Origin: Thermoflexales bacterium
Lineage (GTDB): Bacteria; Chloroflexota; Anaerolineae; J036; Brachytrichaceae
Assembly (NCBI GenBank): GCA_025056965.1
Contig: JANWVF010000128.1
Location: forward strand, 1-50,008
Reading direction: 5' to 3'
DNA length: 50,008 bases
Part shown: positions 3,031 to 27,854 of the stretch, one piece after another
Numbering within the stretch: position 1 is the first letter of the stretch
Layout: every line of letters starts with the position of its first letter
Translations under genes and position numbers: made by a program
Notes under the pieces: model-generated
The model's input: only the letters and a program-made list of their open reading frames with translations
What the model was told of the DNA's origin: nothing
Database searches by the model: none

Positions 3031-5048
3031 CCAAGGGCCTTCCGGCTGCACTCTCGCTGCTCGTCGCGCTGATTGGGCTATGCGCACCGGTGCATGCGTG
3101 GCAAACGATCGAGCGTCCGGCACAGCAGGAGGAAGGATCGTCCTTCACCGCTGAACCGTGCGAAAGCGTCGTTACCGTGAGCGAGTCGGAAACGACGCCG
3201 AAGTTCGACGAGAACACCGACTGCGGCTGGCTGACCGTGCCGGCTCGACACGCCGACCCCGGTGGGCTGAAGATCAAGTTGGGCGTCGTCATCCTCCGCG
3301 CGCGCGCCCTTGACCATGCGCCTGATCCCCTGGTCATGGCGCAAGGCGGACCGGGCGCCAGCACCATCGAGACCTACCTCGAGGAGATGAAGGACAGCCC
3401 GATCCGCGCCAAGCGCGACATCGTGCTGTTCGATCAGCGCGGCACGCGCCACACCCGGCCAGCGTTGGCCTGCGATGAACTGGATCGCGCGAGGATCGCG
3501 GCCATCGAGCAACGGCTGACGCCCGACGAGGAAAGCCGCCGCCGGCTGGAGGCGGTAGAACAGTGCCGTGCGCGCTTAGTGCGCGAAGGCGTTGACCTAT
3601 CGGCTTTCGATAGCATTGAGAACGCCGCCGATGTGGCCGCGCTGGCCCGCGCGTTAGGCTACGACAAGATCAACTTCTACGGCGTGTCCTACGGCACCTT
3701 GCTGGCACAGCACCTGATGCGCGACCACGCCGGCATCCTGCGCAGCGTCGTCCTAGACGCAGTCGTGCCGAGCGAGGGTAGCTACATAGCGGAGTCCGCA
3801 CGCGCGGAAGATGGCGCGCTCAGCGAGCTATTCCGCGCCTGCGCCGCCCATCCGCGCTGCGCAGCGGCCTACCCCAACTTGGAGCGCGACTACTTCGATG
3901 CTGTAGAGCGGTTGAACCGTCAACCGGCCGAGGTTTTCATGCTCGATTTGGACACCGGCAAGGGTTACGACACCGTCCTCTACGGCGACACGCTGCAGGG
4001 TTTTGTCTTCCAGGCGCTCTACGCGACCGAGCTGTTGCCCTTGCTGCCTTATGTGATGGACCGCGCTGCGAAAGGGGACTACGCGCCGATCGGCAACCTC
4101 GGCAGCGTGTTTGCCTTTGACCGCTCCGTGAACGACGGCGCCTACCTCTCTATGACGTGCGCCGAGGACGCCAGCTTGCTCGATCAACCGATAAGCGACG
4201 CCGGTGTGCGCCCACCGGTCGCACAGCGCAGCGCGCGCGACTGGCGCGACTTCGTTGCAGCATGTCGGCTGTGGAACGTGGAAGCGCTGCCGGCCGACGC
4301 GAACGCGCCGGTGCGCAGCGACGTGCCGACGCTGTTGCTGTCCGGTCGCTTCGACCCGATTACGCCTCCGGCCAAGGGTGACCGTGTGGTGGCGACGTTG
4401 ACCCGCGCACGGCACCTCGTCTTCCCCAACGTCGGCCACAGCGCCTTCGGCATCGAGCCGTGCGCCGACCAGATCGTTAAGGCATTCATCGCCGATCCCA
4501 ACGCGCCGCTCGACACGACGTGCCTGGCTCAGCTCGGTGCGCCGACCTTCATCACGTCGGAGGACGTCGTGCCGCTGACCTCGTTGGTTCGGCTAGCGTC
4601 GCTCTCGGAGCGCGGGCGGCGTGAGCTGGCCGAACTGGGGCTGGCTCTGCTTGTCCTCTTGAGCGCCTGGATCACGATCCCGCTAGGGTGGCTCGTGCGT
4701 AGGCTGGCAGGCCAGGAATCACGCGATCTACCCTGGCTGGCCAAGCTCAACCCGTGGCTCACGCTGTTGTGCGGCGCGCTGCTGGCCTACTTCGTCGGCA
4801 TGGTCGGCGCAACGGCGGCGGACTTAGTCTTGCAAGATAACTACTTGTTCTTGTTCGGCCTGCCCGGTGATGCCCGGCCGTTCTTCATCGTTCCCCCGGT
4901 CGCCCTGGCGCTCACGGGCTTAATGGCCATCGGTGTCGTTGTCGGTTGGCGCCATTGGGGATGGTTGCGGCGGATCAATCGCATGCTACTGGTTGCCGCC
5001 GCCATCGTGTGTCTCAACGTGCTTAGGGCGTTAGGGATGTTGTTGTAG
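3027..5048 (+). CDS. Secreted alpha/beta-hydrolase peptidase (S33/TAP-like) with C-terminal membrane anchor
   Basis: A 673-residue protein. A signal peptide (about residues 1-24, MTKGLPAALSLLVALI, ending in VHA) leads to an alpha/beta-hydrolase domain. Landmarks are MAQGGPGAS (oxyanion loop), VLFDQRGTRHTRP, the nucleophile elbow YGVSYGTLLAQ, and near the end of the domain SGRFDPITPP (Asp) and NVGHSAFG (His), so the Ser-Asp-His triad is complete. This is the plan of proline iminopeptidase and tripeptidyl aminopeptidases (TAP-like C-terminus). After residue 510 come four hydrophobic segments (near ALLVLLSAWITIPLGW, LLCGALLAYFVGMVG, VALALTGLMAIGVVVG and VAAAIVCLNVLRALG), which would tether the enzyme to the membrane with its catalytic domain outside. 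The ATGA overlap with the Rieske gene suggests translational coupling. The 3' end overlaps the opposing R2lox gene by 18 bases. Confidence 0.85.
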   Translation: MTKGLPAALSLLVALIGLCAPVHAWQTIERPAQQEEGSSFTAEPCESVVTVSESETTPKFDENTDCGWLTVPARHADPGGLKIKLGVVILRARALDHAPDPLVMAQGGPGASTIETYLEEMKDSPIRAKRDIVLFDQRGTRHTRPALACDELDRARIAAIEQRLTPDEESRRRLEAVEQCRARLVREGVDLSAFDSIENAADVAALARALGYDKINFYGVSYGTLLAQHLMRDHAGILRSVVLDAVVPSEGSYIAESARAEDGALSELFRACAAHPRCAAAYPNLERDYFDAVERLNRQPAEVFMLDLDTGKGYDTVLYGDTLQGFVFQALYATELLPLLPYVMDRAAKGDYAPIGNLGSVFAFDRSVNDGAYLSMTCAEDASLLDQPISDAGVRPPVAQRSARDWRDFVAACRLWNVEALPADANAPVRSDVPTLLLSGRFDPITPPAKGDRVVATLTRARHLVFPNVGHSAFGIEPCADQIVKAFIADPNAPLDTTCLAQLGAPTFITSEDVVPLTSLVRLASLSERGRRELAELGLALLVLLSAWITIPLGWLVRRLAGQESRDLPWLAKLNPWLTLLCGALLAYFVGMVGATAADLVLQDNYLFLFGLPGDARPFFIVPPVALALTGLMAIGVVVGWRHWGWLRRINRMLLVAAAIVCLNVLRALGMLL

Positions 5049-5855
5049 GTGTCGCTGCCGACCGCGCTCGAGCGCGCCTAGGCGATGGTCGAACTGCTCG
5101 CCGGCATAGGCGATGAACTCGGACGGATCGAGGCCGAAGGGCACATCGTCGCCGTAAGGTGCGAAGGTCTCGTTCACGACCTCGAGCGCCAGCGGCAACA
5201 GCGCGTTCAGCCGGTTCATCAGCACGTCCCATAGCGCCGGCTCGTGCCGCAGCAGGCGATCCAACGCATAGAGCCCGTAGGCGATGTGGCGCGCCTCGTC
5301 GCGCTGCACCAGCTCGACCCCGCGCACTGTGGCGGGCATGAGGCCGTGATCACGCAGAGCGCGGGCATAGCCGTAGTAGCCGGTCTCGGCCAGCACGCCC
5401 TCGATGATGATGTGATATGTGGCGAGCGCCTCTACCTGCGCGTGGGGTGAATCGTCCCGCAACAACCGGCTGAGCGCTGCCGGTAGCTCGACCGCAAAGA
5501 GCTGACGATACGGCGCAGACGGCGCCGCAGCCGCCGGCGCACCCATGGCGCTGTGCCAGCGATCGAACCATTCGACATGCTTGCTCTCCTCGAACAACTG
5601 CGTCGTGAGGAACATCTCCTCCTCCAGTAAGCCGCCCTGCCGTCGTATGGCTATCAAGAGCGGCGCTAAGTCATGCGTCACGGCGACCTCACCGCCCATG
5701 AACTGCCCTGAGAGCCGCAGGATGATGTCGCGCTCACGTTCGCCCATGCGCTGCCAATCGCGCACGTCCTGCGAAAGGTCAATATCGCGCGGATCCCAGA
5801 CCAGTTGCTTGGCTTTGTGATACAGAGAGAGCGGAAGCAGGGTTTCATCAAGCAT
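5031..5855 (-). CDS. R2-like ligand-binding oxidase (R2lox, Mn/Fe)
   Basis: A 274-residue ferritin-fold protein of the R2lox group, related to ribonucleotide reductase R2 but with a different role. All six metal ligands can be placed: Glu56, Glu90 and His93 (EESKH), Glu152, Glu187 and His190 (DEARH). The two residues joined by the ether cross-link in known R2lox proteins are also present: Val59 (three after Glu56) and Tyr147 (five before Glu152). The N-terminal YHKAKQLVWDPRDIDLSQD stretch is typical. Known R2lox proteins assemble a Mn/Fe cofactor, bind a long-chain fatty acid-like ligand and activate oxygen; their physiological substrate is not settled. The gene stands alone, converges with the peptidase gene and is divergent from the LacI gene. 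No R1 partner is present, which fits R2lox rather than R2. Confidence 0.88.
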   Translation of the reverse strand: MLDETLLPLSLYHKAKQLVWDPRDIDLSQDVRDWQRMGERERDIILRLSGQFMGGEVAVTHDLAPLLIAIRRQGGLLEEEMFLTTQLFEESKHVEWFDRWHSAMGAPAAAAPSAPYRQLFAVELPAALSRLLRDDSPHAQVEALATYHIIIEGVLAETGYYGYARALRDHGLMPATVRGVELVQRDEARHIAYGLYALDRLLRHEPALWDVLMNRLNALLPLALEVVNETFAPYGDDVPFGLDPSEFIAYAGEQFDHRLGALERGRQRHLQQHP

Positions 5856-6132: not shown

Positions 6133-7221
6133 GTGAAAGTTTTAGAAAACACTCAGCCCGGGCGTCAACCCACTCTGCGCGATGTAGCCGAACGCGCAGG
6201 TGTTTCATTGGCCACGGCGTCTCAAGCGTTGAACAACCGGCCTAATGTGACGCCTGAAACCCGCCGTCGCGTGATCGAGTCTGCTGCGGCCTTAGGGTAT
6301 CGTCCGCTGCGCAGCAGGCGTCATGAGGCGCTGTCCGTCGTGGGCATGCTGGTCAAACACGACTATGGCCTGCCCCTGACGTTCAACCCGTTCTTCTCGC
6401 AGGTGCAGATCGGCGTCGAACAAGAGTGCCGCGCTCGCCACCTCAGCTTGATGGTGGCGACGGTGGACGTAGACCGCAGTAATCGTCCGGTGATGTGGCC
6501 GCGCATGATCGAGGACAACAGCGTGGATGGCTTGCTGCTGGTCGGCACGAACATCGAGATGACCGCCGAGGCGCTTCAGCATAAGTATCTCCCCGATAAG
6601 CCAATCGTCCTCGTGGACAGCTACGCGCGCGGCTTTCACTTCGATAGCGTGCTGATTGATAACTTCGGCGGCGCAACGCAGGCGGTTGAGCATCTCATCG
6701 AGCTGGGTCACCGCCACATCGCCCTGATCGGCTCCAACCCGGATTCGCCACCGGATATCCTGGAGCGGCGCCAGGCCTACTTTGAGGCGCTCCGGCGCCA
6801 CGGCATCGAGGCAACATACGTAGAGGACAGCTTGATGAGCCGCGAGGCCGGCTATGAGATGCTCCAACGGCTGCTGCGGCGCGCGCCTCAGGTCACCGGC
6901 GTGTTTGTCGTGAACGACGACACGGCGATCGGTGTGCTGCAAGCTGCCCAAGACATGGGGCTGCGCATACCGGACGACCTTTCCATCGTAGGGTTCGATG
7001 ACATCGCGCTTGCCGGACAGGTGCGTCCGGCGTTGACCACCGTGCGCGTACCGATCCCTTGGCTGGGGCGGCTAGGCGTGCGACAGCTCCTCGAGCGCAG
7101 CTGCAACCCCGATCAGCCTCAGGTGACTTCGACGCTGGCTACGCAGCTGGTGGTGCGCCAGTCGTCCGGCCCATGCAGGCGGTGTGAAGAAGCGGAGGTG
7201 AAGGACATGCGCATCGCCTAG
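6133..7221 (+). CDS. LacI-family transcriptional regulator
   Basis: A 362-residue regulator. The N-terminal helix-turn-helix reads LRDVAERAGVSLATASQALN (about residues 15-34), followed by the hinge region ending near LGYRP. The periplasmic-binding-like effector domain follows, with DGLLLVGTN, VLVDSYARG and the GRRQAY-like helix ERRQAYFEAL. The C-terminal half has VFVVNDDTAIGVLQAA and LSIVGFDDIALAGQVRPALTTVRVP, both typical of sugar-responsive LacI/GalR members. The start is GTG at 6133; no ATG lies before the DNA-binding domain. The gene precedes the surface glycan genes in the same direction, so its effector is probably a sugar and its target this locus. The last residues after the domain (CRRCEEAEVKDMRIA) are an unusual tail. 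Confidence 0.9.
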   Translation: MKVLENTQPGRQPTLRDVAERAGVSLATASQALNNRPNVTPETRRRVIESAAALGYRPLRSRRHEALSVVGMLVKHDYGLPLTFNPFFSQVQIGVEQECRARHLSLMVATVDVDRSNRPVMWPRMIEDNSVDGLLLVGTNIEMTAEALQHKYLPDKPIVLVDSYARGFHFDSVLIDNFGGATQAVEHLIELGHRHIALIGSNPDSPPDILERRQAYFEALRRHGIEATYVEDSLMSREAGYEMLQRLLRRAPQVTGVFVVNDDTAIGVLQAAQDMGLRIPDDLSIVGFDDIALAGQVRPALTTVRVPIPWLGRLGVRQLLERSCNPDQPQVTSTLATQLVVRQSSGPCRRCEEAEVKDMRIA

Positions 7222-7293
7222 GCGGCCAAGCCTCGGACGGACGCGCCAGGGCCTGCGCGACGCGTTCGACAAGCCAAGTTCAGAGAGGTGGGG

Positions 7294-10200
7294 ATGGAAA
7301 TCAAGCGTAATCTGTGCTGCCTTGCAGCAGCCGGCGCGCTGCTCGTAGCGAGCGGAGCGGCATTTTACGTCTCGGCGCGCGAGGCTTTCTCTCAAGGTGA
7401 CCTAGTTGTCTTCGACGACAGCCTAGCCTCGGGCTGGCAGAACTGGTCGTGGGACGGCAGCTATGACTTGGCGCACAACGTCACGGTGTACCAGGGTAGC
7501 GCGTCCATCTCTGCAACGATCACCAACGGATATGGTGGCTTGTCGCTGCGCGTAGATCCCGGCCTGACGGGCGCGAATTATGGTGCGATCCAGTTCTGGG
7601 CGCACGGCGGCGCAAGTGGCACGCGACAGCTCCAGGTTGTGGTGGAACAAGGCGACTCCGGACCGCGCACCCCGGCGTTCGACATAGATGTGCCAGCCGG
7701 CAGCTGGCAACAGTTTACGGTTCCGCTGAGTGCCCTCAGTAGTCCGGCGACGATCAAGCGCATTAACATTGAGGATCGCAGCGGCGCCGGCCAGCCGACG
7801 TTCTACATAGACGAAATCAAGCTGCTGGCAGCTACGCCGCCTCCGACGCCTCCACCGGGCTGCGATTTGCCGATCTACCTCGACGGCCTAGCCTCGGGCT
7901 GGCAGAACTGGTCGTGGGGAGGCACATACCAACTCTTCCACACGTCTACGGTTTACCAGGGCAACTTCGCCATAGAGGCTTCTATGACCTCTGGTTATGC
8001 AGGGCTCTCCTTCCGCGTTGATCCCGGCATCACCGGCGGTTATGCGAGCATCCTCTTCTGGGCGCACGGCGGCGCAAGCGGCACCCGGCAGTTGCAAGTG
8101 GTCGTCGAGCAGGGTGACTCCGGCCCGCGCACGTCGCCGTACTTCATAGATGTGCCGGCAGGGACATGGCAACCTTTTCTCATCCCGCTCAGCGCGCTGG
8201 GCAATCCGGCAACGATCAAGCGCGTCAACATTGAGGATCGCACTGGGGCCGGCCAGCCGACGTTCTACGTGGATGCCGTGTGTTTGAGCACTATGGCGCC
8301 TCCCCCAACGCCCACGCCCATGCCACCTCCACCGGACTGCGATGCGCCGGCGTATCTTGATGCGCTCGCCGCGGGCTGGCAGAGCTGGTCGTGGGATGGG
8401 ACGTATGACTTTGCGCACACCACAACCGTATATCAAGGCAATGCATCCATCGCGGCGACGATCACGAATGGCTACGGCGGGATATCGTTGCGGGTAGATC
8501 CCGGGTTATCCGGCGCGAGTTACACCTCGATCCGTTTCTGGGTGCACGGCGGCGCAAGCGGCACGCGCAGGCTTCAGGTCGTGGTGCAACAAGCCGATGT
8601 GGGACAGGAGACTACGCCATTCGCATTCGATGCGCCGGCGGGCACGTGGACACAAGTTATTGTGCCGTTGAGCGCGCTGGGCAACCCGGCCACGATCAAG
8701 CGCATCAACATCCAAGACCGCACTGGAGCCGGCCAGCCGACGTTCTACGTGGACGTCGTATGTCTCAGCGCCGCGCCGCTGCCGCCGCCGCCACCGCCTC
8801 CTCCACCACCTCCGCCCCCCGCACCGACCCCGCCGCCTGCACCCCCGGCATCGCGCTTTCCGGGTGTGCCGGGGTGCGCCTACACGCTCTACGACGACGC
8901 ACTGGCAGATGGCTGGGACGACTGGTCGTGGAATACCAACGTAGCGCGCGAGCATCCATATGCGCTGCAAGGCCGCGCCCTAGCTTTTCAGTATCGCGGC
9001 GGCTACGCAGGCCTGTCGTTGCGCACTCCCGTAGCGCTCAGCCGCAGCGACTACGAGGCCGTTTCCTTCTGGATCAGCGGCGGCGAAGATCCCGGCGTGC
9101 GTCAGATCATGTTCCTCATCCAGAGCGCCGACGAGGGGGGCGAATCGCGGCGATTTCATCTTGACGTGTCACCGCGAACGTGGACGCCGGTGACAATCCC
9201 CTTTAGATTGCTCGGTCACGTGCCGGCCATCAAGCGTATCAACTTCCAGGAGCGCACCGGCCAGGCGCAGCCGCCGATCTTCGTGGACAACATATGCTTC
9301 CTGCGCGACAACGGCGGCGTGGATCTAAGCGGCCTGGCCAACTTGCATCCCGGCGATTTGCTTCTGTTTGACGAGGCAACCGGTGACTTTGTGGATGACT
9401 GGTCGTGGGAGACAGCGCTGAGCTTTGCCAACGTCCAACCGGCGATCGGTCTGCGTTCGCTCGCAGTGCGGCATCAGAAAGCTTACGCTGGGCTATCGCT
9501 GCGTTTGAAACAGGCGCAGAGCGCCGCCGAATACAGCGGCATCGCATTCAGCATCCACGGTGGAGAGCAGGGTCGGCGTCAACTCGAGCTCTACGTTCAG
9601 CAGGCCGATGAAGGCCAGGAAAGCAAGCGCGTCAAGTTCGACGTGCCTGCGGGACAATGGTATGACGTCGTCGTCCCGTTGAGCGCGTTGGGCGAACTCC
9701 AGGCGATCAAGCGCATCAATATTCAAGACCGCAGCGGTCGGCCTCAGGCGTATTACTTGGATAACATCGTCCTCGTCGGCGCCGGCAGGCAGGTTACGCT
9801 CAAGCTGCCCGCCCAGCCCAGCGATGCCGCTGCCCCGGACGTCCGATCGAGCTCCGGGCGAGTCAGTTCGTCGTGGCCGGATGGCGTGGTGTATCAGGAT
9901 GCGCTGGCGCCGAACTGGGAGAACTGGTCGTGGGACGCGCGGGTGAACGTCGCGAACACCCAACCCGCGCTGGGACGGCGCTCGATAGCGGTGAGCTACG
10001 CCAAGGGCTACGCCGGCCTCTCGCTGCGCGCGCCCATGACGCTTGCGGCCGGCGATTTCCGCGCGGTCGTGTTCTGGGTGCACGGGGGCGAAGCCGGTGA
10101 GCGACGGTTGCAGTTCTTCGTTCAGCAGACCGACGCCGGCGGAGAGTCGCGCAAGATTCCGCTCGAGGCGCCGGCGGGTGCCTGGACACCGTTCACCATT

Positions 10201-11250
10201 CCGCTGACCTTCCTGGGCGAGCTGAACACGATCAAGCGCCTGAACCTGCAGGATGTGAGCGGCGCGCCCCAGCCACCGTTCTACGTTGATCAGATACAAC
10301 TGACGCGCGAGTCCGTGACGACGACGTTGCCGCCGCCTCGCACGGGACCGACACCGGAAGGTGGATTCCTGATCTATCGGGACGGTTACCTGGCCGAGGG
10401 CTGGGATAACTGGTCGTGGGACACCGACGCTGACTTCCGCAATCGCAAGCCGGTGCTCCTCGGCTCGCATTCCATCCTGGTGCGCAACCGAGCGGCCGGC
10501 GGGTTGTCGCTGCGCGCGCCGATTACGCTGAACGCCGAAAACTATGGCGGCGTCCTAGTCCGCGTGCTCGGCGGGGAGACGCGCCCGCGACGTTTGCAGC
10601 TCTTCGTGCAGACGACCGACGTCGGCGGCGAGATGCCTAGCTTTATCTTCGACGTCACGCCGCGGCGCTGGCTCACCTTCAGCATCCCGTTCAGTGCGCT
10701 GGGCAACCCTCAGACGATCAAGCGCATCAACATTCAGGATTTGAGCGGCGCTTCCGAGACGACCTACTACATAGATGAGCTGGCGCTGTTGCCGTTCCGT
10801 GATCGCCCGCAGCCGCCGCGCCCCCCTTACTCCGCGCTGTTTGGCAACATCTTGGCCAAAGGATGGCGCGTGACGGCGCAGGGCATGCAAATCTCGCTCC
10901 GGGAAGAGCGCGTTGCACGAGCGATGTATGCCATCGCTGCTCAGATTACACAATCGGGCGCGCGCCTTCAACTTGAGGCAGCTCGACCCGCGGACGCGCG
11001 CGAGTTTCAGGCGTTCTCATTCTGGGTACACGGCGGTGCACGAGGGGTGCGCGGGTTGAAAGTGCGCATCCACCCGGCTGCTAACGCCGCGCCCGTGGAA
11101 GCGATATTCGACGCGCCGGCCAATGCTTGGCGGGAGGTTCGCGTGCCGCTGGGAGGCATGCCCGGCGTGCAAATGATCGCGATCGAGGCGCCCGCCGACA
11201 TAGCTGACGGCGTGTTCTATCTCGACGATCTTCGTCTGGTGCGCGACTAA
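7294..11250 (+). CDS. Large secreted protein of eight tandem beta-sandwich (carbohydrate-binding-like) modules
   Basis: A 1318-residue exported protein built almost entirely from copies of one module of about 155 residues. After a signal peptide (hydrophobic stretch near residues 8-26) each copy opens with GW-x-x-WSW, continues with GYAGLSLR, then a FW(V/A)HGG turn, LQ(V/F)xVQQxD, a DVPAGxW strand and PLSALGNPxTIKRINIQD, and closes with PTFYVDxIxL. Seven copies are intact; the eighth (from about 10850) keeps FWVHGG and FYLDDL but lacks the WSW and IKRINIQD signatures. Proline-rich linkers separate copies 1-4, including a run of 13 prolines. Similar modules occur beside glycosidase domains, hence the guess of glycan binding; no catalytic domain is visible. 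ATG 7294 is preferred over GTG 7288 because GAGAGG lies just upstream. The gene follows the LacI gene by 72 bases and precedes the beta-helix gene by 46. Confidence 0.8.
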   Translation: MEIKRNLCCLAAAGALLVASGAAFYVSAREAFSQGDLVVFDDSLASGWQNWSWDGSYDLAHNVTVYQGSASISATITNGYGGLSLRVDPGLTGANYGAIQFWAHGGASGTRQLQVVVEQGDSGPRTPAFDIDVPAGSWQQFTVPLSALSSPATIKRINIEDRSGAGQPTFYIDEIKLLAATPPPTPPPGCDLPIYLDGLASGWQNWSWGGTYQLFHTSTVYQGNFAIEASMTSGYAGLSFRVDPGITGGYASILFWAHGGASGTRQLQVVVEQGDSGPRTSPYFIDVPAGTWQPFLIPLSALGNPATIKRVNIEDRTGAGQPTFYVDAVCLSTMAPPPTPTPMPPPPDCDAPAYLDALAAGWQSWSWDGTYDFAHTTTVYQGNASIAATITNGYGGISLRVDPGLSGASYTSIRFWVHGGASGTRRLQVVVQQADVGQETTPFAFDAPAGTWTQVIVPLSALGNPATIKRINIQDRTGAGQPTFYVDVVCLSAAPLPPPPPPPPPPPPPAPTPPPAPPASRFPGVPGCAYTLYDDALADGWDDWSWNTNVAREHPYALQGRALAFQYRGGYAGLSLRTPVALSRSDYEAVSFWISGGEDPGVRQIMFLIQSADEGGESRRFHLDVSPRTWTPVTIPFRLLGHVPAIKRINFQERTGQAQPPIFVDNICFLRDNGGVDLSGLANLHPGDLLLFDEATGDFVDDWSWETALSFANVQPAIGLRSLAVRHQKAYAGLSLRLKQAQSAAEYSGIAFSIHGGEQGRRQLELYVQQADEGQESKRVKFDVPAGQWYDVVVPLSALGELQAIKRINIQDRSGRPQAYYLDNIVLVGAGRQVTLKLPAQPSDAAAPDVRSSSGRVSSSWPDGVVYQDALAPNWENWSWDARVNVANTQPALGRRSIAVSYAKGYAGLSLRAPMTLAAGDFRAVVFWVHGGEAGERRLQFFVQQTDAGGESRKIPLEAPAGAWTPFTIPLTFLGELNTIKRLNLQDVSGAPQPPFYVDQIQLTRESVTTTLPPPRTGPTPEGGFLIYRDGYLAEGWDNWSWDTDADFRNRKPVLLGSHSILVRNRAAGGLSLRAPITLNAENYGGVLVRVLGGETRPRRLQLFVQTTDVGGEMPSFIFDVTPRRWLTFSIPFSALGNPQTIKRINIQDLSGASETTYYIDELALLPFRDRPQPPRPPYSALFGNILAKGWRVTAQGMQISLREERVARAMYAIAAQITQSGARLQLEAARPADAREFQAFSFWVHGGARGVRGLKVRIHPAANAAPVEAIFDAPANAWREVRVPLGGMPGVQMIAIEAPADIADGVFYLDDLRLVRD
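7414..11247 (+). repeat. Tandem protein-coding repeat, eight units of about 460-540 bases
   Basis: The GW-x-x-WSW codons recur near 7429, 7894, 8370, 8911, 9390, 9912 and 10399, and the degenerate eighth unit begins near 10850. The string ctggtcgtgg is identical in all seven intact units, and units 1 and 2 share a longer exact stretch around it. DNA-level identity this high suggests fairly recent duplication or gene conversion. Confidence 0.8.
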
Positions 11251-11296
11251 CAGCCAAGAGGCTGTGCAACGAGAACTGTTGGAGGTATTCGAGCTT

Positions 11297-14200
11297 ATGC
11301 ACACGAAAACGACGACGATCATCAAGCTGTTATTAGGAGCGATCACGACGCTCGCCGCGCTGCTCCTAGCCGGTCGAGCCCATGCCGATACGATCACCGT
11401 GACGATCGGTTTCGATCGCTTCGACGAAACGGCCACGGCGGACTGCTCGCTGCGCGAAGCGATTCAGGCAGCCAACACCAACGCCTCATTTGCCGGATGT
11501 CAGCACAGCGGCGGCGACCCGAACGATGTCATCGTGTTCGATAGCGCGGTCAGCACGGCATTTATCACGCGCACGGTATCCGGCGATAACAACGACAACA
11601 CCAGCGGCGATCTCGACGCATACGTGGGGAGCGTAAGCGGCACGCTGGTCATCCGCGGCCCAGCGACGGTGCTCGTGCAGAATCTCTTCGACCGCGCATT
11701 CGACGTGCGCCCCGATTCATCGGGAAGCGGCGCGTTCAGCCTGGAGGCAATCACGGTGAGCGGTGGGGATCTGCGCCTCGACCTTACTTCCGATGACGCC
11801 GTCATCACCAATGCTCAGCTCGAATGCGTCTATGGAGGTGGGGGCGTGCGCGTTCACTCCGGCGTAACGGCGACCCTGGACGGTGTCGTCGTGAGTGAAA
11901 ACGCGGCTGCTTACGCCGGCGGCGGCGTGTGCGCCAAGGAGGGCGCTTCGCTCATCATTAGCGGCACCCAGTTGCTTTCCAACACGGTCGGGTTGAGCGG
12001 CAGCACGCAGGTGAACTGGGTGGCCGGAGGCGGCGGCTTGTGGAGCAGCGCGCCACTGGTGATGACGAACTCGTTCGTGATCAGCAACCGCGTCGTGCTT
12101 AGCGGCGGCTTCTATAGCTTTGCCGGCGGCGGCGGCATCGGCGTCATCACCGGCGATCTAAGCATCATGGGCAGCGTCGTGAGCTACAACCGCGTCGAGC
12201 AAAGCGCCGACGCCGAGGCTCAGGGTGGCGGGATCATGGCCGGCCGCTGGGCAGGCCCGCTCGCTCAGGTGCTGCTCCGGGGTGTCAGGATCGAAGGGAA
12301 CCAGTCGTTGAGCGGTGCGACGTCCTACGGCGGCGGCGTGGCGCTGCTACGGGGCGTGCAGGCGTTGATCACTGGCGGTTCGATCATCTCCGGCAACGTG
12401 TTGAGCGCGACCCAAGGCGCGGCCGGCGGCGGGCTCGCCGTGGGATTGAACTTCTGGCCGAGTGACTACCAGCCGCCTATCGTTGAGATGGACGGCGGCG
12501 TGGTGCGTAACAACCGCGCTACGGCGAGCGCCGCTTCGGTCGCGGGCGCCGTGACCCCAACCGTATTCGGCGGCGGGGCGTTCCTGGGTGTGGGAACGGT
12601 GTTCACCGTGACCGGTATCTCCGTAGATAACAATGCGGTGCGATACATCGGCGCCTCAGTGACTAACACCAACGGCTTTGGCGGAGGGATCAGCGCCTTC
12701 GCCCATGGGGGCGGCCGCGTGAGCAACTCCCAGGTTCTCAGCAACGCCGTGCGCGGCTTCCGCTTTGCCAGCGGCGGCGGCCTGCATGTAGGTGGCGACG
12801 GCTTCCTGCTGAGCAATACCGCGGTCAGCGCGAATGTCGCCGAGTCATCCACGGACGCCGACGCCGGCGCGCTCGGCGGCGGCGCCTTCATCAACTGGGG
12901 CGAGTCGCACTTCACCGACGCGCAGATATTCGGCAACGTGATCACCGGCGTGCTCTACGCCAGTGGCGGCGGCATCGCGGTGGACGGCAGACTATATGTG
13001 ACGAGCACCGCGATCGGCGCAAATCACGGCCGCGCCGGTGGAGGGCTTTTTGTGAACAGCGGCGGCATTGCACACGTCGAAAGCAGCAACATCGTGTCTA
13101 ACACGGCCGAGAGCGACGGGGGCGGCGTCCAGGTGAACGGCACACTCTTCATCACGCGCACCGCCGTAGTGACAAATACTGCCCTGCAAGGAGGTGGCTT
13201 GGGCCTCAGCAGCGCGGCGCTGCTCTACGGGCGCCAGATCACCGTGGCGCACAACCTGGCCACAGGCACCAACTACGCGCAGGGAGGCGGCCTGTTCGGC
13301 GGCGGTAGTGCGTTCGTGTCCGATAGCACAATTGCACATAACCGCGCCGTGGCGCCGAACTACGCAGCCGGAGGCGGCGTGTATCGCTATGGTGGTGTAT
13401 TCCATCTGAGCGGTTCGCAACTGAGCGATAACCTGGCGAGCAGCAACGGCGACGTGAAGGCGGGTGGGTGGTATGGCTCGGACAGCACGGCCTACATGAC
13501 CAACACGCTGATCGCGCGCAACGTCGCCTCAGCGACGAATCTTGCGCTGGGCGGCGGCATCTGGATCACCAATACGACGCTCGCGCTGTCGAACGTTGAC
13601 GTGTTGACCAACACGGCTCGCTCGCTGAACAGCGTAGCCAAGGGTGGAGCAGGCGTTCAAGAGAGCCAGACTACGCTCACGCTGATCAACGGTCGGGTGC
13701 AGGACAACCAGGCGCGCTCGCAAAACGCCTCGGCATACGCCGGTGGGTTCGACGTGGCCAGCACGTCCAAGCTGTTCATCACGACTACGCGCGTAGTGAG
13801 CAACGCCGCCGTCGGCGACAACGCGAGCGGCAGCGGCGGCATCGGTAACAACGGCGTCTTGCGGATCGTGACGTCTACCGTGAGCAGCAACAAAGCCCTG
13901 AGCGTAACGACCGGTCAGCCGGTCGGCGCAGGCGGCGGCATCGGCAACGGTGGCACGCTGCACATCGCGGCCTCGAGCATCGTCAGCAACGTCGCCGCAA
14001 CCGGCGCCGGGCTGAACACCTATGGCGCTGCCCAGACGCATATCCTGAACAGCACGCTGAGCGGCAATCAGTCTAACCCTGGCACCAACATCGGCGGCGC
14101 GATCCTGACCGGCACGGCGTATCTGACCCACACCACCGTTGCGAGCAACACCGGCGCCGGCCTGGCCATCGGCGGGAGCGGCCTGGTCATTCGTGCCACG

Positions 14201-14557
14201 GCGGTCGCCCACCATGCCGGCAACAACTGCGTGAGCTGGGGCGGGAGTGTGAGCAACAGCGATTACAGCGTGAGTGATGACACGACGTGCGCGACGTTCT
14301 TCGCTGGAACGAATGCGCTGAACAATACACCATTCATGCGCCTGAGGCCGCTGACATTCCACAGCGCGACGGGCACGTGGTATCACCCCACCTTGGTGGG
14401 CAGCCTGTTGCATGAGCGCGTGCCGGCGGGCGACTGTCCGCTGACCGATCAGCTCGGACAACCGCGCCCCGGCGTCTTGCACTGCGACACCGGCGCGTTT
14501 GAGCTGCAGAGCTTCTATCGCGTCTTCGCGCCGATTGTGCGGCGGCCGAACGTTTGA
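11297..14557 (+). CDS. CSLREA-type right-handed beta-helix surface protein
   Basis: A 1086-residue exported protein. The signal peptide (MHTKTTTIIKLLLGAI, ending near GRAHA) is followed by the CSLREAIQAAN motif at about residues 50-60, the mark of the CSLREA domain family. The rest is a long series of 20-30-residue turns with GGG(V/I/L) and SNTA-like Asn/Thr/Ser-rich strands, the pattern of parallel beta-helix or Pmp-like repeats. Such proteins are usually on the cell surface, as adhesins or as polysaccharide-acting proteins; no pectate-lyase catalytic residues can be picked out. The C-terminus ends FYRVFAPIVRRPNV, resembling the short YLPL(V/I)-x-R ends of many Chloroflexota exported proteins, maybe a sorting signal. 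GGAGG at 11281-11285 supports this start. It is probably cotranscribed with the multi-module gene. Confidence 0.8.
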   Translation: MHTKTTTIIKLLLGAITTLAALLLAGRAHADTITVTIGFDRFDETATADCSLREAIQAANTNASFAGCQHSGGDPNDVIVFDSAVSTAFITRTVSGDNNDNTSGDLDAYVGSVSGTLVIRGPATVLVQNLFDRAFDVRPDSSGSGAFSLEAITVSGGDLRLDLTSDDAVITNAQLECVYGGGGVRVHSGVTATLDGVVVSENAAAYAGGGVCAKEGASLIISGTQLLSNTVGLSGSTQVNWVAGGGGLWSSAPLVMTNSFVISNRVVLSGGFYSFAGGGGIGVITGDLSIMGSVVSYNRVEQSADAEAQGGGIMAGRWAGPLAQVLLRGVRIEGNQSLSGATSYGGGVALLRGVQALITGGSIISGNVLSATQGAAGGGLAVGLNFWPSDYQPPIVEMDGGVVRNNRATASAASVAGAVTPTVFGGGAFLGVGTVFTVTGISVDNNAVRYIGASVTNTNGFGGGISAFAHGGGRVSNSQVLSNAVRGFRFASGGGLHVGGDGFLLSNTAVSANVAESSTDADAGALGGGAFINWGESHFTDAQIFGNVITGVLYASGGGIAVDGRLYVTSTAIGANHGRAGGGLFVNSGGIAHVESSNIVSNTAESDGGGVQVNGTLFITRTAVVTNTALQGGGLGLSSAALLYGRQITVAHNLATGTNYAQGGGLFGGGSAFVSDSTIAHNRAVAPNYAAGGGVYRYGGVFHLSGSQLSDNLASSNGDVKAGGWYGSDSTAYMTNTLIARNVASATNLALGGGIWITNTTLALSNVDVLTNTARSLNSVAKGGAGVQESQTTLTLINGRVQDNQARSQNASAYAGGFDVASTSKLFITTTRVVSNAAVGDNASGSGGIGNNGVLRIVTSTVSSNKALSVTTGQPVGAGGGIGNGGTLHIAASSIVSNVAATGAGLNTYGAAQTHILNSTLSGNQSNPGTNIGGAILTGTAYLTHTTVASNTGAGLAIGGSGLVIRATAVAHHAGNNCVSWGGSVSNSDYSVSDDTTCATFFAGTNALNNTPFMRLRPLTFHSATGTWYHPTLVGSLLHERVPAGDCPLTDQLGQPRPGVLHCDTGAFELQSFYRVFAPIVRRPNV

Positions 14558-14652: not shown

Positions 14653-16497
14653 GTGACCAGGAAACTAACTCGTCGTCAACTGTTGCGTGCCGGAATGATC
14701 GGCAGCCTGGGCGTTTTGGCGGCCGCGTGCGGCGGGAGCACCGATGGCAGCAGCGCATCTCCCGATCAGCCTGCGCTGCCCGAAGTCGCCCCAACCGATA
14801 CCCCCCAGCCGGCCTCGGAAGCAGGTGAGCCGTCTCGTGCATCGGTCAGGCTGAAGGAAGTGCCGCGCAATCGCACGCTGATCGTGAACTACGGCGGGGT
14901 CAGCGGCCAATACACCAATCAGGGCATCACCAATCCCTGGGCGATCGGCTTCAACCACCAAGAGGGGAACTCGCTATTGTGGGAGCCGCTGTTCTACTAC
15001 TCAGTGTTCGCCAACAAAGAGATCCCCTGGCTGGCCGAGCGCGGCGATTACAACGAGGACTACACCGAGCTGGTGATCAAGATGCGCCCGGGGGCGGAAT
15101 GGAGCGACGGCGTGCCGGTAACCTCGGCGGATGTGAAGTACACCCTCGATACGCTCATGGAGAACGACCTGCTGCTTTATCACGCGCAGGTGTCCGAGGC
15201 AGTCAAGGAAGTGACGACCCCGGACGAGCGCACGGTCGTCGTTCGCTTCAACAAGCCGAGCCCGCGCTTCAAGTTCGAGGTGCTCAGTTTTAAGTTCGAC
15301 ACGGGCATTCCTGTGCTGCCCAAACACGTCATGGAGCAGATGTATGACGTGACCGCCTTCCCGGGCGACGATGACATGGTGCACAGCGGCATGTTCAACA
15401 CCTTCCAGACGCCGCAACAGAAGGTCTTCGACCTGCGCGAAGATTGGTGGGGCTTCAAGACGGGCTTCCAGAAGAAGCCCGACATCGAGCGCGTGATCGT
15501 GCTTCCGATCAGCGACATGACCATGACGGCGCAGCGCATCGTGAACGATGAGGTGGATGCGACGCTCGATATGCGCCCCTCATTGATCCGCAGCGTCGTC
15601 GAGCAGAACCCGAAGATCATCACGCACACCGGTCGCCAGGAGCCGCTGGGCTACGTGGACTGGTGGCCCAACTCGCTCTGGGTCAACACGCAGCTCGCCC
15701 CCTACGACAACCCAGACGTCCGCTGGGCGATCAACCTGGCGATTGACCGGGACACGATAGACCGCTTCGTCTTCAACGGCGTCAAGCTCACCACGATCTT
15801 CCCATATCCCGAGTATGAGCCGCTCAAGCCGTATCTCGACCGCGTGCGACCGCGCGGCGAGGCGCTCGGCGTGGCGCGCTTCAGCTTGGAGGAGAGCGCG
15901 GCGCGCATGGAACGCGCCGGATTCACGAAAGACGGCGAGGGCTTCTGGGTGAAGGACGGTCGGCGGGTCAACGCGACCATCCACGGTTTCGAGGTGATCC
16001 ATGCCGACATCGTGCCGGTCTTGATCGAGATGCTGCGCCGCGGCGGTTTTGAGTCTGCGGTGAACTTCGGAAGCGACGCCTTCCAGAGGATGGTGGACGG
16101 CCAGCCGGGCCTCTACCTGTATGGCCACGGCGGCAGCCTCGTTGATCCTTACGCGACGCTGGAGCTGTATCACAGCCGTTCCAGCCAGCCCAACCAGGCC
16201 GGCGCCGGCGGCAGCAATCGCTTCTCGCGCTACAGCAATCCGGAGTTCGACCGCATCGTAGATGAGATGAGCGTGATCGCCCCGTCAGATCCCCGGCTGG
16301 ACGCGCTCTTCGAGAAGGCGATGGACATCTACTGGGGCGACATGATAGACATCCCGTTGATCCAGTGGCTGCATCGCATCCCCTACAACACCACTTACTG
16401 GACGAATTGGCCAACGCAGGACAATCCTTATCTCAACGGCGCATTCTGGCACTACACTTTCCCGTTGCTGGTGTTGAACTTGAAGGCGGCTCAGTGA
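14653..16497 (+). CDS. Family-5 (oligopeptide/oligosaccharide) ABC solute-binding lipoprotein
   Basis: A 614-residue SBP_bac_5 protein. The N-terminus TRRQLLRAGMIG looks like a Tat signal and is followed by a lipobox-like LAAAC, so it is probably exported folded and lipid-anchored. Family landmarks are NSLLWEPLFYYS, the MRPGAEWSDGVPVTSADVKYT motif region, and DVRWAINLAIDRDTI. Most relatives bind peptides or nickel, but a subgroup in Thermotoga and others binds beta-glucan or xylan oligosaccharides. The adjacent GH5 gene and LacI-type regulator favour a sugar ligand here. No permease or ATPase genes are near, so it must share a channel encoded elsewhere. The start is GTG at 14653 with AGGAG 9 bases upstream. 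Confidence 0.88.
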   Translation: MTRKLTRRQLLRAGMIGSLGVLAAACGGSTDGSSASPDQPALPEVAPTDTPQPASEAGEPSRASVRLKEVPRNRTLIVNYGGVSGQYTNQGITNPWAIGFNHQEGNSLLWEPLFYYSVFANKEIPWLAERGDYNEDYTELVIKMRPGAEWSDGVPVTSADVKYTLDTLMENDLLLYHAQVSEAVKEVTTPDERTVVVRFNKPSPRFKFEVLSFKFDTGIPVLPKHVMEQMYDVTAFPGDDDMVHSGMFNTFQTPQQKVFDLREDWWGFKTGFQKKPDIERVIVLPISDMTMTAQRIVNDEVDATLDMRPSLIRSVVEQNPKIITHTGRQEPLGYVDWWPNSLWVNTQLAPYDNPDVRWAINLAIDRDTIDRFVFNGVKLTTIFPYPEYEPLKPYLDRVRPRGEALGVARFSLEESAARMERAGFTKDGEGFWVKDGRRVNATIHGFEVIHADIVPVLIEMLRRGGFESAVNFGSDAFQRMVDGQPGLYLYGHGGSLVDPYATLELYHSRSSQPNQAGAGGSNRFSRYSNPEFDRIVDEMSVIAPSDPRLDALFEKAMDIYWGDMIDIPLIQWLHRIPYNTTYWTNWPTQDNPYLNGAFWHYTFPLLVLNLKAAQ

Positions 16498-16527: not shown

Positions 16528-17637
16528 ATGGGCATCCCTGCATGGACTCGTGCGCTGGTGGCCGTCGCGACGCTTGTGACGCTCGCCGCGTGCAGCGACC
16601 GCGACGCGCCACCCCGCAGCGCGCCGACGGCGACACCGAGCGCGAATCAGCGCAATGAGGGCGCCGTGTCGGTCACCACAGTGGACAAATTCACCCCGAT
16701 CGGGCCCTTCGAGATGCAGCGCCGCCTAGGACGCGGCGTTAACCTGGGCAATGCCCTGGAAGCGCCGCGCGAGGGCGAATGGGGCGTTACGATCGCCGAT
16801 TACTTCTTCCCCCTCATTCGCCAGGCCGGCTTCGATACCGTGCGCGTCCCAATCCGCTGGTCGGCACATGCGCTGCGCGAGCCGCCTTACACAATCGCCC
16901 CGGAATTCTTCGAGCGGATAGACTGGGTCGTTGAACAGGCGCTGAATAATGACCTCAACGTGGTGATCAATGTGCATCACTACGATGAGCTGTTCCAGGA
17001 TCCTGAGGCGGAGTGGGATCGCTTCCTAGCGCTATGGGCGCAGATCGCCGACCGCTACAAAGACTATCCCCCAACGCTGTTGTTCGAGGTGCTCAACGAG
17101 CCGAACGGAGCACTCACCACGCGGGTGTGGAACGTGCTGTTCGAGGACACGCTGCGCGTCATCCGCAAAACCAATCCCACCCGCAACGTGATTCTCACCG
17201 GCGCCAACTGGGGGCAGCTCGCCAGCTTATTCAGCGTGCGCATCCCCGATGATCCCTACCTCATCGCCACCTTCCACTATTACGAGCCCAAGGCATTCAC
17301 CCATCAGGGCGCGAGCTGGGTGCAGGAAGCCGGGGAGTGGATCGGCACGCGCTGGCAGGGCAGCGAGGATCAGCGCCGGGAGATAGACCGCGCGTTCGAC
17401 GCCGTAGCGCGCTGGAGCAAAGATAAGAACATCCCGGTGTGGATGGGCGAGTTTGGCGCCTTTGGCCTGCACGCCGAGTTGGAGGACCGCGTGCGCTGGA
17501 CGGCTTACGTCGCCCGCGCAGCCGAGCAGCGTGGAATCACTTGGGCATACTGGGAGTTCGGCGCCGGCTTCGGCGTATACGATCTGGTCACCCAACAGTG
17601 GGTCGAGCCTTTGCTACGGGCGATGATCCCACAATGA
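16528..17637 (+). CDS. GH5-family endoglucanase lipoprotein
   Basis: A 369-residue glycoside hydrolase. The lipoprotein signal ends in LAAC, with Cys22 as the lipid-carrying residue, then a Ser/Thr/Pro-rich linker to about residue 50. The TIM barrel starts at RLGRGVNLGNALEAP. The acid/base Glu191 lies in LFEVLNEPNG and the nucleophile Glu308 in PVWMGEFGAF, both placed as in GH5 cellulases and mannanases; INVHHYDEL and FHYYEP are further GH5 barrel motifs. It should cut beta-1,4-glucan or a related glycan outside the cell. AGGAG lies about 8 bases before the ATG. It follows the solute-binding gene by 30 bases, so the two are probably one transcript: cut and bind. Substrate specificity within GH5 is not decided. 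Confidence 0.9.
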   Translation: MGIPAWTRALVAVATLVTLAACSDRDAPPRSAPTATPSANQRNEGAVSVTTVDKFTPIGPFEMQRRLGRGVNLGNALEAPREGEWGVTIADYFFPLIRQAGFDTVRVPIRWSAHALREPPYTIAPEFFERIDWVVEQALNNDLNVVINVHHYDELFQDPEAEWDRFLALWAQIADRYKDYPPTLLFEVLNEPNGALTTRVWNVLFEDTLRVIRKTNPTRNVILTGANWGQLASLFSVRIPDDPYLIATFHYYEPKAFTHQGASWVQEAGEWIGTRWQGSEDQRREIDRAFDAVARWSKDKNIPVWMGEFGAFGLHAELEDRVRWTAYVARAAEQRGITWAYWEFGAGFGVYDLVTQQWVEPLLRAMIPQ

Positions 17638-26132: not shown

Positions 26133-27854
26133 TCACGCATAGCGCACGAGATACACCGCGCCGGTCAGCTGAACTGCTTCAGGCTCGCGAGACTCGAAGC
26201 GCAGCGTCAGCGGCTGGCCCGACATCAGGTGCTCCGCCGCAATCTCGCCCACCGCCCACGATAGGCCGCTCCAGATCGCCTTGTCGTAGTTCACCTGCAC
26301 CGGCACCTCGCGTCCGGATTGATGCGCCGTGATGGTGAGAAGCCGAGCCAGCGTCGTCCCGCTGGGGGGGCTGCCGCCGGTGGTGCGCTTGGCGATGCCG
26401 CGCGCGTCGGTCTGACGGAAGACGGCGCGCACGTGCGCATCGCTCGGCGCAGGTATCGTCGCCGTGATCGCCTTGTCCCCATCGGCGACGAACGCGACAG
26501 GCAACGGCTCGATGGATGCAGGGATGATTACGTCGTCCTGCACGCCCAGCTCGTATTGCGCATCGGCGTAGCGCCCGATGCCGATCAGCGCCATCTGCTC
26601 CGCGCCCAGCGTAATCTGCCGGCCGCGCAGCGCCGGCTTGAACCCGGCATCGCAGAACAGCAGTCGCATCGGCGCGTCGGCCGCGATGGGAATGGGCGAC
26701 CGGCCGAGATCTACGTCCGCTGTCCTCTGACCGGGATTCACGGCCGTGACTAGCGCGCCGTCCGCGTCGGCGGCGATGAAGGCATAGGGCTCGCCCTCGC
26801 CCGGCATCCCGCCGAACGCCTCGCATCGTCCGTAAGCTTGCAGTGCCATGAACATGGCCTGTGCTTTGGCGAACCATCGCGCGTCGGCCTCGCTCAGCAG
26901 GTCGAGGTTGCCGTAGTAAGTGTTGGCCCAGCCGCCGCGCGCCAGCGATAGCAGCAGCATGCCGCGCCACGCCGCCGCGCCGCGATAGTAGCAGGTGCCG
27001 GTCGTGCCGATCATGAACCCGGAGTTGTCAATGCGCGCGAGCGGCAGGCCGTTCAAGGCGTAGGCGCGCACCATGTGATCGGAATACACATCTTTGGCGC
27101 GCCAGAAGTTCATCGCCGGCACGTCGGCCGGGCGCGGATCGCCGCAATAGATGGCGTCGAAGACATCCAGCCAGCGCGTGTCCATGACTTTGCGGAAAGG
27201 CAGGCTGGTGTTGCTCTGGGTCACGTAAGACCAACCTCGGCAGCGTGTCTGCTCCTCGAAGCCGTTGTAGGCGAGGAAGACCACGTCGGGGTGTTCCAGC
27301 CGAAAGCGCTTCAGGCCGGCCATGAACGCGGCGATGTTCTGCGCGCGCACCTCGGAAGGCAGCATGGTCTGGGCGACGGCGACCGGCGCCGCATCGAAGT
27401 TCATGAAGTCCACCTTGAACAGGCGCACGCCGCGTTCGTACCACAGGTGCAAGCTCTCCAGGAAGTGGGCGAAGAAGCCGCCGCTGAACAAGCAGCAAGC
27501 TGTACCGTCCTCGTTGAGCGAGTCGCGCCAGGCCGGAACGGGATCGTGCGCCATGCACGAGTTGCCGGCGACCCACAGCCCGGGTAACACGCCGTTGCTC
27601 AGACATTGATCGAGCCAAGCATCCGGGCCGTTCGGCCAGTGCGGCCGGCGCCAGGTGCGGTAGCCGCCGTCGCGCGCATACCAGAAGGCATCCATCAGGT
27701 AGTAATCGAAGCGCACGCCGAACGAGCGTAGGCGCAGCAGCTCGCGCAGTTGGCGCAGCGCCAATTCTTCCGTCAGCTCGACTACATCGGACAGCTCATC
27801 GTAAGCTGCCCAATTGATATAGATGGCAACCGGTTGTTTGAGCATGATGTTCAC
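26133..27854 (-). CDS. GH36/clan-D-like alpha-glycosidase
   Basis: A 573-residue TIM-barrel protein, probably an alpha-galactosidase-like glycosidase. FDYYLMDAFWYARDGGY is the typical early barrel strand of GH27/GH36 clan D, followed by GVLPGLWVAG. Asp149 in LFKVDFMNFD matches the nucleophile position (K-x-D). The acid/base residue is not certain; Asp in DVFDAIYCGD is one candidate. From about residue 345 come beta-rich C-terminal domains. It has no signal peptide, so it should act in the cytoplasm on imported oligosaccharides. The start GTG at 27854 is preferred over the ATG at 27845 because TACAAT ends exactly 8 bases before it. Without a search the exact GH family stays open. Confidence 0.65.
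   Translation of the reverse strand: MNIMLKQPVAIYINWAAYDELSDVVELTEELALRQLRELLRLRSFGVRFDYYLMDAFWYARDGGYRTWRRPHWPNGPDAWLDQCLSNGVLPGLWVAGNSCMAHDPVPAWRDSLNEDGTACCLFSGGFFAHFLESLHLWYERGVRLFKVDFMNFDAAPVAVAQTMLPSEVRAQNIAAFMAGLKRFRLEHPDVVFLAYNGFEEQTRCRGWSYVTQSNTSLPFRKVMDTRWLDVFDAIYCGDPRPADVPAMNFWRAKDVYSDHMVRAYALNGLPLARIDNSGFMIGTTGTCYYRGAAAWRGMLLLSLARGGWANTYYGNLDLLSEADARWFAKAQAMFMALQAYGRCEAFGGMPGEGEPYAFIAADADGALVTAVNPGQRTADVDLGRSPIPIAADAPMRLLFCDAGFKPALRGRQITLGAEQMALIGIGRYADAQYELGVQDDVIIPASIEPLPVAFVADGDKAITATIPAPSDAHVRAVFRQTDARGIAKRTTGGSPPSGTTLARLLTITAHQSGREVPVQVNYDKAIWSGLSWAVGEIAAEHLMSGQPLTLRFESREPEAVQLTGAVYLVRYA

Follow-up and report, generated by a model that had tools for sequence, protein, structure and literature searches.

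The window analysed is a stretch of 50,008 nucleotides of a Thermoflexales bacterium. Positions 7294-11250 (+) form one open frame of 1318 residues with an ATG start and an alternative GTG at 7288. The encoded protein is composed of a signal-like N-terminus (MEIKRNLCCLAAAGALLVASGAAFYVSAREAFSQG, 7294-7398, +; read from the sequence) and eight beta-sandwich modules. Start-to-start spacing of the modules, including the linker, is about 150-180 residues. When module 1 served as sole query against the genome, all seven other copies in the frame were recovered, the weakest being module 8 (E 8.9e-12; E <= 1e-26 for the rest), so that the repeat is far beyond chance. No catalytic domain was found in the protein with Pfam and NCBIfam. 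These searches agree with the initial annotation, which had described seven intact copies and a degenerate one without any catalytic domain. The repeat is thus borne out, but the length of the module, given there as ~155 residues, is corrected to ~143.

The modules are located, all on the + strand, at 7399-7830 (module 1), 7864-8292 (module 2), 8341-8772 (module 3), 8881-9306 (module 4), 9355-9777 (module 5), 9880-10308 (module 6), 10366-10791 (module 7) and 10837-11244 (module 8). Pro-rich linkers had been noted between the first four copies only. The longest ones are indeed found there, including a poly-Pro linker of 36 residues between modules 3 and 4 (8773-8880, +), but linkers 6-7 and 7-8 have Pro runs too. 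Linker 4-5, in front of module 5 (DNGGVDLSGLANLHPG), is Pro-poor and conserved as DxGGVDLSxMAxLxPG. Modules 2, 3 and 4 each have a Cys pair, with one residue just ahead of the module and one near its end, at matching positions across the complete eight-module arrays. In these arrays the other modules, including module 1, have none. These positions suggest a disulphide latch.

A profile built from modules 1-7 and one paralogue was compared with the PDB. The best match is DdCBM8, the C-terminal module of the GH9 enzyme CelA from Dictyostelium discoideum (PDB 7t7y; E 1.2e-12 over 139 positions), followed by the module inserted in MtGlu5 from Meiothermus taiwanensis (E 0.00095). 7t7y was also matched in a single-sequence search (E 4.6e-07). 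In the same profile comparison, the relationship to CBM29-1 and CBM29-2 is not significant (E 0.59 and 0.95). The structure of module 3, modelled alone with AF2 from an alignment of 97 sequences, was predicted with a mean pLDDT of 97.6. Search for structural similarities using Foldseek again ranked 7t7y first (E 5.2e-10, TM 0.83/0.80, rmsd 1.9), ahead of MtGlu5, CBM29 and CBM11. The carbohydrate-binding-type beta-sandwich proposed from sequence inspection is therefore retrieved both by profile and by predicted fold. Module 8 alone matches 7t7y weakly (E 0.16), yet the module 1 search identifies it as homologous to the other modules. A five-module model (M4-M8) has a pTM of 0.42 and supports no arrangement of the modules; with it, Foldseek returned only multi-jelly-roll coincidences with a global TM <0.2.

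Pfam matches above cut-off in the protein correspond to the generic jelly-roll families MAM, CBM_11 and CBM_4_9, and no CBM8 model is among them. The SGBP_B_XBD domain stays below its cut-off in the array protein (15.4 vs 26.4 bits). MAM (PF00629) reaches 53 bits on the whole protein for a cut-off of 26.4. In terms of fold, however, a MAM structure ranks only 39th, with a TM of 0.47 vs 0.83 for 7t7y. A MAM adhesin is disfavoured by this weaker fold match, the Pfam score and the fold pointing in different directions.

The binding site of DdCBM8 is a flat platform made up of W572, W574 and Y600; the W572A and Y600A mutations abolish binding and Q686A weakens it (PMC9079177). Its ligands are glucomannan, beta-glucan, HEC, xyloglucan and cellulose, whereas xylan is not bound; glucomannan is the tightest-bound of the soluble polymers measured (PMC9079177). 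Residue numbers of 7t7y were taken from the construct, with the first vector residue as 552. In the alignment, W572 and W574 correspond to the two Trp of the WSW motif, Y600 to the Tyr of GYxGLSLR and Q686 to the Gln of INIQD. All four positions are kept in modules 1-6 as W, W, Y and Q/E. Glu replaces Gln in two of these six full sites in the window (modules 1 and 2), whereas modules 3 to 6 have Gln. The third aromatic is gone in module 7 (W W A Q in the window), where the site Tyr is replaced by A, T, G or N in every genome with the array. In module 8, both Trp and the third aromatic are replaced in 9/9 genomes. The M6-like copy of one fragmented array (G007) carries F. Of 62 relatives from outside the array family, 58 have Trp as third aromatic, so that Tyr marks the array; conservation of WSW in these relatives is partly built in, since WSW was one of the two scan patterns. 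Judging by sequence, fold and site, modules 1-7 may thus be described as CBM8-like, with carbohydrate binding as a prediction.

The initial annotation had proposed a recent expansion from copies with high DNA identity. Such identity is found for modules 1-3 only (69-70% in nucleotides and also in amino acids), the other pairs being 42-62% identical in nucleotides. Within the window, pairs of copies have dS values that are 0.78-2.77 or saturated, and mostly >1. In a tree of 80 modules, positions 4, 5, 7 and 8 each form a clade over the nine array genomes, which belong to four genera, with a bootstrap of 100. Position 6 forms a clade (98/92) of eight genomes, with the G007 copies beside it. Intact arrays have eight modules in six cases out of seven; the G007 and G022 arrays, split over contigs, are outside this count. 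The copies are thus anciently diverged and constant in number, the very outcome that the annotation had named as speaking against its own proposal. Clades by position over several genera, together with the constant number, indicate that the expansion is older than the spread of the array among genera. Purifying selection acts on every module (dN/dS 0.05-0.32 between close orthologues), module 4 being the slowest-evolving position.

A recently expanded, length-variable repeat protein would account for the closeness of modules 1-3, which form a single clade with an order mixed between lineages, and for the seven-module array of one genome (G010), which has lost one of these N-terminal copies. 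Some copy turnover thus took place, within these first three modules only. For modules 4-8, fixed in position across genera, recent expansion is refuted. The dS values between copies and the position-specific clades rule out a recent tandem expansion, and, considering also the dN/dS between orthologues, we give this explanation of the whole protein almost no credit. Separately, the G007 array (L047:837-1386, C181) is interrupted at its first copies by a frame change and an in-frame TAG, corresponding either to a pseudogene or to an assembly error.

Despite the loss of its site, module 8 is predicted to have an intact fold. It evolves faster than most modules, but its dN/dS between close orthologues (0.19-0.32) argues for a constrained rather than a decaying domain. 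The earlier idea that this degenerate last copy is a cap or an anchor may hold.

The array was found in 9 of the 28 genomes of the family, with a patchy distribution even within the genus. Named relatives belong to Candidatus Roseilinea and to other Thermoflexales/Anaerolineae MAGs. Outside the family, no protein with more than three modules was present among the matches listed (396 genomes of the class; best 77 loci in a scan of ~85,000 species). Among these matches, proteins other than the array have 1-3 modules, often beside glycosidases. Most have one or two modules and several hundred further residues, often GH44; the enzyme families in proteins carrying module relatives are GH44, GH8, GH5 and GH9. 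This is in line with the view, expressed at the outset, that such modules are normally appendages of glycosidases. In another family of the class, one protein (L136:4094-7903, -) has three CBM8-like modules and a middle part that looks GH5-type when read by eye, a layout between appendage and array. In the genome studied here, a paralogue (L010:6928-9072, -) has one CBM8-like module before ~530 residues that match no Pfam enzyme family and only weakly match the structure of an arabinofuranosidase. Several further module relatives likewise have no Pfam enzyme match. A search of plasmids for the module retrieved only a Runella GH9 protein.

In two comparisons, the sequence identity of the arrays departs from that of RadA. 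Modules 4-8 of G013 (L045, C6) and G005 (L042, C67), which belong to different genera, are 94% identical, for 73% in RadA. UvrB, encoded ~2 kb from the G013 array on the same contig, is 83% identical to that of G005, and the gene downstream of the array differs. These two observations disfavour contamination as the source of the near-identical arrays, a chimeric contig being conceivable. The array of the window is 70% identical to that of G010, from another genus, and 61-63% identical to those of three genus-mates. RadA shows the reverse (75% with G010, 88-89% with genus-mates). From the conflict between the array and RadA/UvrB, we infer transfer between genera. Thus, the array apparently crossed genera, and the G005/G013 case is likely recent.

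A gene for a LacI-family regulator (6133-7221, +) lies just upstream of the array. The next gene after the array encodes a CSLREA / choice-of-anchor Q protein (11264-14557, +). It is followed by a family-5 solute-binding protein (14653-16497, +), assigned by Pfam and PDB search, whose best solved relative is the mannoside-binding protein 4pfu (E 1.2e-33), and by a GH5 endoglucanase-like protein (16528-17637, +) closest to 3amc/TmCel5A (E 6.6e-109) and without a CBM of its own. Both have lipobox-like starts (LAAC in the GH5), as read by eye. Some of the nine array loci stop at contig edges, and with this limit the CSLREA gene adjoins the array in five of nine genomes (window, G010, G013, G015, G022), the binding protein is near it in three (window, G010, G015) and the GH5 in two (window, G015). 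LacI is near the array also in G010 and G022, both of another genus, and G002 and G005 have a GH1 gene instead. Because the neighbourhood varies in this way, partnership with the GH5 and the binding protein is not obligatory. Upstream of the LacI gene is a gene of the R2-like ligand-binding oxidase type (5031-5855, -). Further along the window, a 573-residue open frame (26133-27854, -) has no Pfam match.

The LacI regulator, the mannoside-type binding lipoprotein, the TmCel5A-like GH5 and, elsewhere, GH1 suggest capture of beta-1,4-glucan or glucomannan. We propose, with a probability of about two in three, that the array is a secreted, non-catalytic, multivalent protein binding polysaccharides, probably those of plants, for the neighbouring GH5 and uptake protein. 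It would be exported via its signal-like N-terminus. The flat aromatic sites of modules 1-6 and the reduced site of module 7, carried on linkers, would bind the polymer with avidity. The GH5 lipoprotein, which lacks a CBM and whose gene is the third after that of the array, would cleave the polymer held near the cell. The resulting oligosaccharides would be picked up by the solute-binding lipoprotein, whose gene immediately precedes that of the GH5. The LacI regulator may control the set. Module 8 would be a folded terminal domain without canonical site, perhaps capping the array or making contact with the cell or with a partner.

The weakest link of this proposal is retention of the polymer at the cell, because no SLH, cohesin, dockerin or anchor motif was found. 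The array protein shows neither a lipobox nor a sortase motif nor an anchor at its C-terminus, and anchoring through SLH was rejected since the genome contains no SLH domain. A location at the cell surface is a conjecture, with the signal-like N-terminus as its basis in the sequence. Glu in place of Gln in two of the six full sites of the window also counts against the proposal. Non-catalytic multi-module layout, with a last domain that is distinct, conserved and devoid of site, also recalls a scaffoldin that would assemble enzymes on the polymer through module 8 as docking domain. Cohesin and dockerin were not found in the genome, which led us to reject a cellulosome scaffoldin, and the GH5 encoded nearby carries no additional domain. 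A scaffold role is therefore very improbable.

A multivalent, enzyme-free protein with a signal-like start could also bind exopolysaccharide of the cell itself or of a neighbour and build a biofilm or a filament sheath, with no role in feeding. Hot-spring biofilms are the source of Candidatus Roseilinea-like MAGs (PMC11071339). In addition, the CSLREA neighbour resembles another secreted repetitive protein and MAM, matched in Pfam, is a domain of adhesion proteins. Against this stand the catabolic neighbours (GH5, GH1, binding protein, LacI) and the poorer fit of the MAM structure. In addition, nothing in the genome reached the curated cut-off for cellulose synthase, one match being weaker, and own cellulose was rejected as ligand on this ground. 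Overall, we consider a matrix or adhesin function unlikely, at roughly a fifth of the weight one could give, and favour polysaccharide capture for the GH5 and the uptake protein.

Several known systems share features with the array. CBM29-1 and CBM29-2 of Piromyces equi non-catalytic protein 1 are tandem modules with a Trp-x-Trp + Tyr platform; they are fungal and number two, and their sequence match to the array is not significant. We take the Piromyces protein, in line with its PDB molecule name, to be a CBM-only protein. DdCBM8 is alike in profile, fold and the WSW, Tyr and Gln of its site, but is present as a single copy on a GH9 enzyme, whereas the array has eight copies without enzyme. 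The related CBM29-like Trp-x-Trp module of MtGlu5 (PDB 7vt4/7vt8) goes with the same GH5 type as here. It sits within a TmCel5A-like GH5, and its removal leads to loss of substrate affinity (PMC9063844). The module of MtGlu5 is thus part of the enzyme and has Trp as third aromatic, whereas enzyme and modules are separate proteins here. Sas20 of Ruminococcus bromii (PMC9112005) and Bacteroidetes SusE/SusF-type proteins are likewise non-catalytic, multi-site polysaccharide or glycan binders for separate enzymes. They differ by their unrelated domains, starch ligands, fewer sites and known cell-surface complexes.

Thus, domain, fold and site were already known, and the ordered, enzyme-free, position-specialised array is the new arrangement. 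A search of open-licence papers found none on CBM8 arrays, and the one solved CBM8 structure is that of a cellulase appendage. More tentatively, and with odds that we place below even, the array might be a free polymer-capture device, with modules in a set order and each adapted to its position, that is inherited and moves between genera as a unit and serves a CBM-less enzyme in trans in bacteria without cellulosome or Sus system. Its eight ordered modules, in which the site is reproducibly kept, reduced or lost by position, provide natural variants to probe the contribution of each aromatic. The array also suits the study of multivalency with cellulose or glucomannan as ligand, possibly at high temperature, and may represent a Chloroflexota route to holding insoluble polymer without a cellulosome.
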